From assembly GCA_018436095.1 (NCBI GenBank), contig JAHDMJ010000010.1, forward strand, positions 1 through 64,000: 64,000 nt of DNA, in the 5' to 3' direction. This DNA comes from Clostridia bacterium. GTDB taxonomy: Bacteria; Bacillota; Peptococcia; DRI-13; UBA5745. Both the position numbers and the translations under genes were made by a program. The notes below the pieces were generated by a model that saw nothing but the letters and a program-made list of their open reading frames with translations, searched no databases and was not told the DNA's origin. Below, piece after piece: positions 4,434 to 30,150 of this stretch. Position 1 is the stretch's first letter, and every line of letters begins with the position of its first letter.

Positions 4434-5024
4434 ATGATAAACTTAATTTTAGCTTCGGCATCTCCCCGGCGCCAGCAATTGTTGTCTTTATTAGGGGTAG
4501 ATTTTACGGTGAAGCCCAGTCCTATTGATGAGAAAACGCTCGTTCTCTCCGGCGGTCCTGCCAGACAGGTCATGGATTCAGCCAGAGCCAAAGCGGAGGC
4601 TGTGGCCTTGACGGAGAAAGATAGCTGGATATTGGCCGCAGATACCATAGTATGCATTGATGGGCAGATTCTGGGCAAGCCCGACCACCGGGAAGAGGGC
4701 CGCCGGATGCTGGGCCTGCTTGCCGGCAGGAGCCATCAAGTGTTCACCGGTATTTGCCTTTTTCACCAGGGAGAGTCCTGCCCGCCGCCGGTCTATGAGG
4801 AGACCAGGGTTTGGATGGCGCCTCTTTCCCGGGAGCAGATAGAGGCTTACCTGGATACCGGCGAGCCTATGGATAAGGCGGGAGCTTACGGAATACAAGG
4901 CTTTGGCGGCTCCCTGATCCCCAGGATTGAGGGGTGTTATTTTAATGTAATGGGGCTGCCTCTATACCGGACTGCCCAGTTGTTGGGACAGGCGGGCATT
5001 AAGACAGGTGGGGCCAATGGATAA
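4434..5024 (+). CDS. maf: Maf-family nucleoside triphosphate pyrophosphatase
   Basis: Maf proteins hydrolyse dTTP/UTP or modified pyrimidine triphosphates to monophosphates and are linked to septum control. This 196-residue copy has the N-terminal signature ILASASPRRQQLL (residues 5-17), the catalytic region ILAADTIVCIDGQILGKP, and the conserved DKAGAYGIQGFGG near residue 145. Its last 8 bases overlap the chosen start of radC. The gene order maf-radC-mreC-mreD is common in Firmicutes. Confidence 0.95.
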   Translation: MINLILASASPRRQQLLSLLGVDFTVKPSPIDEKTLVLSGGPARQVMDSARAKAEAVALTEKDSWILAADTIVCIDGQILGKPDHREEGRRMLGLLAGRSHQVFTGICLFHQGESCPPPVYEETRVWMAPLSREQIEAYLDTGEPMDKAGAYGIQGFGGSLIPRIEGCYFNVMGLPLYRTAQLLGQAGIKTGGANG

Positions 5025-29692: not shown

Positions 29693-29766
29693 GGTGGATG
29701 TGGCGAAGTGGTTAACGCACCGGATTGTGGCTCCGGCACTCGGGGGTTCAAGTCCCCTCATTCACC
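29693..29766 (+). tRNA. tRNA-His (GTG)
   Basis: The cloverleaf has acceptor GTGGATG/CATTCAC, the extra G at position -1 typical of tRNA-His, anticodon GTG, T arm GGGGGTTCAAGTCCCC-type and discriminator C. CCA is not encoded. Its last 18 bases are the start of the 191-bp repeat that follows. Confidence 0.95.
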
Positions 29767-30150
29767 CTCAATATACGTATATGTATCCAGGCTTTGGCGC
29801 TAAGTGCTCAGGAGGGTCCCCAAGGGGGGACTTGAACGGGCGGACTTAGGAAGCAGCAAAGCCGACCTATGGAAGGGTTTGCCCGCCCCGGCGTGATAGC
29901 GAACTGCCAGGCAGCGGGGCCGGGATATGGTGAGCGGCGCAAGTCCCCTCATTCACCCTCAATATACGTATATGTATCCAGGCTTTGGCGCTAAGTGCTC
30001 AGGAGGGTCCCCAAGGGGGGACTTGAACGGGCGGACTTAGGAAGCAGCAAAGCCGACCTGTGGAAGGGTTTGCCCGCCCCGGCGTGATAGCGAACTGCCA
30101 GGCAGTGGGGCCGGGATATGGTGAGCGGCGCAAGTCCCCTCATTCACCCT
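29749..30150 (+). repeat. 191-bp tandem duplication anchored on the tRNA-His 3' end
   Basis: Two units, 29749-29939 and 29940-30130, differ at only two positions (CCTATGG/CCTGTGG and GCAGC/GCAGT). Each starts with the 20 bases CAAGTCCCCTCATTCACCCT, which include the tRNA-His 3' end, and the same 20 bases appear a third time at 30131-30150. The unit is GC-rich and structured: GTCCCC/GGGGAC hairpin, CGGGC/GCCCG stem, a TAGG/CCTA inner stem, and an antisense copy of a T-arm-like string (GGGGGACTTGAAC). No ORF of note. The arrangement resembles site-specific insertion or slippage at the tRNA 3' end. Confidence 0.9.

Follow-up and report, generated by a model that had tools for sequence, protein, structure and literature searches.

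A tandem array behind tRNA-His represents an apparently undescribed family of gene-less elements at tRNA and tmRNA 3' ends

Within the 64,000-nucleotide stretch analysed here (the window), a tRNA cluster of the order Arg-His-Gln-Leu holds a tandem array between its His and Gln genes. The host gene, tRNA-His(GTG), lies on the forward strand at 29694-29767 (ARAGORN), and the left edge of the array falls on C56 of its T-loop (29749). Two 191-bp units follow on the same strand at 29749-29939 and 29940-30130, with only two mismatches between them (29869/30060, A-G; 29915/30106, C-T). The 20-bp string CAAGTCCCCTCATTCACCCT, which runs from C56 to the tRNA 3' end plus 1 nt, recurs at 29749, 29940 and 30131 with spacings of 191 and 191, so that it opens each unit and closes the array as its right boundary (30131-30150). 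An earlier note made from the sequence had described these two units, their two differences and the string at all three boundaries exactly, and its likening of the arrangement to integrase attachment sites is borne out by the C56 boundary, the restored tRNA 3' end and the copy left as a direct repeat. The unit is indeed gene-less, as also noted then: the ORFs listed measure 20-78 aa, many overlap tRNAs, and none is plausible as a gene. A known RNA family was considered and rejected, because at the Rfam gathering score the tRNAs alone match and the best other matches are at chance level. Repetition of 191 bp at 99% identity is itself not attributable to chance.

Read in the direction of the tRNA, each unit is built from the tRNA-end copy (T), a linker (X), a complement of the T-arm (rcT; GGGNNTYG), AAC, a hairpin P2, the box GGCGTGATA, a second hairpin P3 and the motif GG[AC]G, after which the next T begins. 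In unit 1, T (29749-29768) is part of the functional tRNA-His; X (29769-29825) is tRNA operon interior and carries no T-run terminator, the linker elsewhere often being a terminator-like hairpin. The rcT of unit 1 (GGGGACTTGAAC, 29826-29837) is the exact complement of the T-arm at 29746-29757 and is followed by P2 (GGGCGG...CCGCCC, 29838-29889), the box (29890-29898), P3 (GCGAAC...GTGAGC with tandem G.A pairs, 29899-29935) and GGCG (29936-29939), directly 5' of the next tRNA-end copy. Unit 2 repeats this layout on the same strand, with rcT at 30017-30028, P2 at 30029-30080, the box at 30081-30089, P3 at 30090-30126 and GGCG at 30127-30130.

A search of the window's own 3.7-Mb genome (G000) revealed six further loci with related units, all directly 3' of a tRNA or tmRNA end (Leu-CAA, Met, Ala-GGC, Gly-CCC, Gly-UCC and tmRNA, the last with two tandem units). 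Because homologues occur at these other tRNAs as well, an accident confined to the tRNA-His locus is excluded. When compared with the 48 tRNA/tmRNA genes of this genome with a recognised T-loop, the right-hand tRNA-end copy of intact units matches its own tRNA at 18/18 positions and other tRNAs with a median of 8-10 mismatches. Likewise, no other tRNA of G000 fits the rcT better than the host does; in the relative G004, the 12-nt rcT of some units fits other tRNAs with the same T-arm equally or slightly better.

A covariance model built from 19 units extended the family, whose members span 100-200 bp, to 9/46 genomes of the window's class, 11/398 of its phylum and 11/391 of a second class, entered via a Clostridia MAG. 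Matches with readable flanks fall in two large Bacillota-type groups and lie nearly all at tRNA or tmRNA 3' ends, covering about 18 anticodons plus tmRNA. The host genes are His, Leu (CAA, GAG, UAG, UAA, AAG), Ala (GGC, CGC), Gly (CCC, UCC), Met, Val-CAC, Ser (GGA, GCU, CGA, UGA), Arg-UCU, Pro-UGG and tmRNA. The exceptions have a transposase gene next to them or resemble displaced copies (L290, L291), sit at a partial tRNA-Ser (L277) or follow a tRNA-like end that ARAGORN does not call (L363, L364). Tandem runs of units occur in G022, G453, G713 and G003. Those of about 101-bp units at tRNA-Ser in G022 (L295, L296) reach the contig borders, so their true lengths are uncertain and such arrays may break assemblies. 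The earlier note had suggested looking for the unit in phages and plasmids; phages gave no match, plasmids only chance-level matches, and viral contigs no convincing copy. Five viral-contig pattern matches were dismissed as chance, with no tRNA or rcT nearby. The broad contig pattern scan also returned mostly chance matches, of which the ones kept either adjoin a tRNA or contain GAACGGG. No description of such elements was found in the open-access literature, though subscription papers could hold one, and the family is apparently undescribed.

The satellite with a tRNA-targeting integrase that the earlier note had proposed thus holds in one respect, a mobile family with attachment-site geometry at tRNA ends, and fails in another, a single tRNA-His integrase, because one integrase with one attachment site does not account for a set of many tRNAs plus tmRNA with ends matched to each. 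We conclude that the family stands on its own, marked by a conserved core and a host-matched arm, and is not a one-tRNA satellite. The alternative offered in that note, a remnant, is wrong for the tRNA-His copy, and truncated remnants do exist at other tRNAs.

Statistics on the core were drawn from 43 distinct units, retrieved by a parser that demanded AAC-like and GG[ACG]G motifs. The box GGCGTGATA is present in 39/43 of them, and the units terminate in GGAG (32) or GGCG (11), counts that lean towards the demanded motifs. Changes on both sides of a pair were seen in 8/15 pairs of P1 (rcT with T) and outer P2, more than in any of 500 shuffles. Since P1 covariation arises in part because both arms copy the tRNA, P2 and P3 provide the independent evidence: the outer pairs of P2 are paired in 85% of cases versus 76% in shuffles (maximum 80.5%), and the paired cells of P3 reach 68% versus 52% (maximum 59%). 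Positions 3-4 of P3 form tandem G.A pairs in 27/43 units and Watson-Crick pairs in the others (e.g., GGGGTCGAAGACCCC). Tandem G.A pairs fit the tRNA-sense strand only, which suggests that this is the folded strand, if either folds. The predicted stability of single units does not exceed that of shuffled sequences (z -0.36 and 0.31), and the structural case is therefore built on covariation.

Several other structures were observed in this survey. A second kind of core, with a hairpin TTTTGCGAAAGCAAAA, a motif AAAGGAGAAAGAGAGCGATAAGGCGTGGC and a T-arm complement of its own, lies between tRNA-Leu end copies (L330, G453:C16; also L335/L077); in one array the two kinds of core alternate. About 180 bp with inverted ends (GGATTCGACAGACAATAA... 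/ ...TTATTGTCTGTCGAGTCC) splits the P2 of one unit (L048/L195, G005:C5) and looks like a small insertion. The dispersed short repeats GTGCAAAAATGCAGGTTTGTA and CACAAAAATCGAAGTTGTG occupy the expected right halves of several decayed units (L216, L236, L210) and are probably another repeat family of G000; CACAAAAATCGAAGTTGTG has four copies in the window.

Comparison of close relatives argues for mobility. The tRNA-Leu-GAG gene is empty in G221 and G292 (...GGGTTCAAGTCCCGCCTTCCGCACCAAT|CAGTAG), and in G245, of the same genus, it is filled by a unit inserted with the 23-bp repeat CAAGTCCCGCCTTCCGCACCAAT, the shown flanks being identical. This gene is also empty in G000 and followed by two 198-bp units in G004, and an alignment spanning the insertion recovers the native downstream sequence at 88%. 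tRNA-Leu-UAG is occupied in G433 and unoccupied in G428, G429, G432 and G437, and the tRNA-His array counts two units in G000 versus one in G004. Unit number therefore varies and the boundaries stay at the tRNA end, as the earlier note's reading required. These differences at otherwise identical sites, together with tandem copies, species-specific sets of occupied tRNAs and several decayed copies, also render very improbable a host RNA element kept by selection for tRNA-operon processing, termination or regulation and not mobile, even though such an element would accommodate a conserved sense-strand fold and the terminator-like hairpin often found between tRNA and core.

Outside tandem runs, the repeat flanking intact units measures 18-26 nt and reaches the mature tRNA 3' end with or without an encoded CCA, the pattern predicted for an element that brings the restoring end itself; decayed copies have a shorter repeat. 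In the Leu-GAG units of G245 and G433 the rcT reads CGGAAGAAGGGCCTTGAAC, which fits the tRNA-Leu-UAG of that family (GTTCAAGTCCCTTCTTCCG) at 18/19 positions and the resident Leu-GAG at 16/19, and both flanking tRNA-end copies in G245 are of the resident type. Units thus change targets, and the rcT, which travels with the element, appears to preserve the trace of a previous host. The tmRNA unit of G000 and the His unit of G002 have an almost identical P2 and different rcTs, each fitting its host; either units gain a new rcT, or chance fits are selected. As read from these comparisons, precise insertion, matched ends, tandem copy-number differences, a conserved fold and change of target all emerge as properties of the family.

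The G245 Leu-GAG junction has the appearance of a duplicated target, not of a reciprocal exchange, unless conversion came later. It suits a guided transposition in which the element comprises X, rcT and the core without a tRNA end of its own, the rcT (as RNA or single-stranded DNA) pairs with the tRNA 3' half, and a trans-acting transposase or comparable enzyme inserts the element, so that the duplicated target supplies both tRNA-end copies. The match of rcT to the host tRNA in most units, and the core boxes and covarying helices that point to a folded strand, agree with this scheme, but the repeat follows the tRNA end instead of keeping a fixed length and no candidate enzyme was found. We consider it unlikely, though not remote. 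A broader formulation, namely a new gene-less mobile class consisting of a folded strand (RNA or single-stranded DNA) with a replaceable T-arm-complement guide and a tRNA end duplicated at each insertion, appears somewhat less doubtful and is retained as a tentative alternative.

Candidate enzymes were sought in the carriers. Tyrosine recombinases are near universal in bacteria, and their presence in 12/13 element-bearing genomes tested (the exception being a 0.7-Mb MAG) is therefore weak evidence; profile scores and lengths, used here in place of a tree, made no common recombinase family evident beyond XerC/D-like proteins. The Phage_integrase profile likewise retrieved no dedicated integrase in G000 beyond XerC/XerD-like ones: its five matches, none on the window's contig, comprise two strong XerC/D-like proteins, one weak match of 389 aa and two fragments. 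Reverse transcriptase matches occur in 6/13 carriers and are absent from 7/13, among them the tandem-unit holders G022 and G453, several of these genomes being drafts; this absence also counts against guided transposition. Self-primed reverse transcription from a tRNA terminator, entertained as the origin of the T-X-rcT palindrome, is attractive for Ala-GGC and tRNA-Gly but was rejected: the terminators flanking on either side may be no more than remnants of tandem units, and reverse transcriptases are often missing. A tRNA minihelix or tRNA-like RNA was rejected because the rcT often covers the T-arm only or passes the CCA into the linker. Group I/II introns, hammerhead and similar RNAs were also set aside, presumably having no place in a core so small with such motifs. 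No autonomous transposon relative was found in the genomes and collections searched.

Some units keep company with integrases. In G026 an integrase gene (414 aa, without a match in viral contigs) lies near a unit together with a small excisionase-like ORF. In G245, the island genes beside a unit (L294 1-4556) encode an integrase, then an unidentified ORF, then a subtilase; at 4730-4790 of the same locus, about 4 kb from the integrase gene, a tRNA-Ser 3' half starting at the anticodon loop has a unit attached, as if both had been carried off together by the island. At tRNA-Pro of G399 (L292 1876-6125), units are separated by gene-bearing stretches of 1.5-3 kb (AAA ATPase, Fic). Units and islands thus share tRNA ends at least sometimes, which lends some substance to a passive role, with island tRNA-integrases recognising the tRNA-end copy and moving or duplicating units as by-products. 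However, within 15 kb beyond the 20 loci checked, only G399 tRNA-Pro has such gene-bearing cassettes, most units have no further tRNA-end copy over that distance, the integrase complement of G000 is as meagre as described, and the conserved core and rcT are left unexplained. We regard this passive role as distinctly unlikely.

Our preferred reading, to which we assign a probability of roughly 0.4, is that the array is a tandem pair of non-autonomous mobile elements, mobilised in trans when a site-specific recombinase acts on a folded end, in the manner of integrons. Such an element would enter tRNA and tmRNA genes at T-loop position C56 and rebuild the tRNA 3' end. Its single-stranded form would fold so that rcT pairs with the tRNA-end copy, making a double-stranded half-site that resembles a tRNA gene; a trans-acting tyrosine recombinase, of the XerC/XerD type or from a resident island, might then join this half-site to the tRNA T-loop. 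Tandem arrays would arise by recombination between tRNA-end copies. By analogy with integrons, a recombinase that reads structure more than sequence would accommodate many tRNAs. The relatives with readable flanks count in favour of this reading, nearly all of them lying at a tRNA/tmRNA 3' end, its fragment or a displaced copy; against it count the right end, which has no integron core GTTRRRY, and the sense-strand G.A pairs, which would suit RNA as well as single-stranded DNA. Both the geometry and the variation in repeat length fit a plain integrase that has an att core of its own. The precedent is mycobacteriophage Ms6, in which the T-loop of tRNA-Ala is the probable exchange region and a changed att core retargets integration to another tRNA T-loop, but because identity of the core is strongly required there (PMC1762012), one integrase is unlikely to serve many tRNAs.

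tRNA genes are classic docking sites of bacterial mobile DNA, usually viewed as served by one integrase per tRNA. A gene-less family of 100-200 bp at many tRNAs and tmRNA, with ends that follow the host, needs another kind of target choice. If the arm-complementary stretch is a guide, the family would represent programmable insertion of natural origin; should the fold be a recombination site, it would extend integron-like single-strand recombination to tRNA genes.

Among known systems, MITEs and REP/REPIN sequences are also short, gene-less, repeated, hairpin-rich and mobilised in trans, if at all; here, by contrast, the terminal inverted repeat is the host tRNA arm, the target is of a single type and no related autonomous transposon was seen. 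Casposons target the tRNA-Leu 3' end with target duplication (PMC6977970) and share with the family both the tRNA 3' end and its duplicated copy, whereas the units are far smaller, gene-less and without terminal inverted repeats of their own kind. Islands and elements of tyrosine integrases at tRNA and tmRNA genes (Islander, PMC4383910; Ms6, PMC1762012) resemble the family in the T-loop boundary, the restored 3' end and the displaced copy as a direct repeat. They differ in having an integrase and one att core per tRNA target, as opposed to 100-200 bp without any gene at about 18 anticodons plus tmRNA with different cores, and the inverted T-arm copy and the conserved three-helix core belong to the family alone. 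Integron cassettes and their attC sites (e.g., PMC3053210) share an imperfect palindromic site at the unit 3' end, tandem arrays and the existence of gene-less units. The right end of parsed units is GG[AC]GC instead of GTTRRRY, two hairpins with conserved junctions stand in place of one, many tRNA genes serve as the receiving site, and the general Phage_integrase profile yielded no integron integrase. The left inverted box GNNTYGAAC does resemble RYYYAAC of attC, and the palindrome that closes each unit, with its covarying helices, may by this analogy play an attC-like role.
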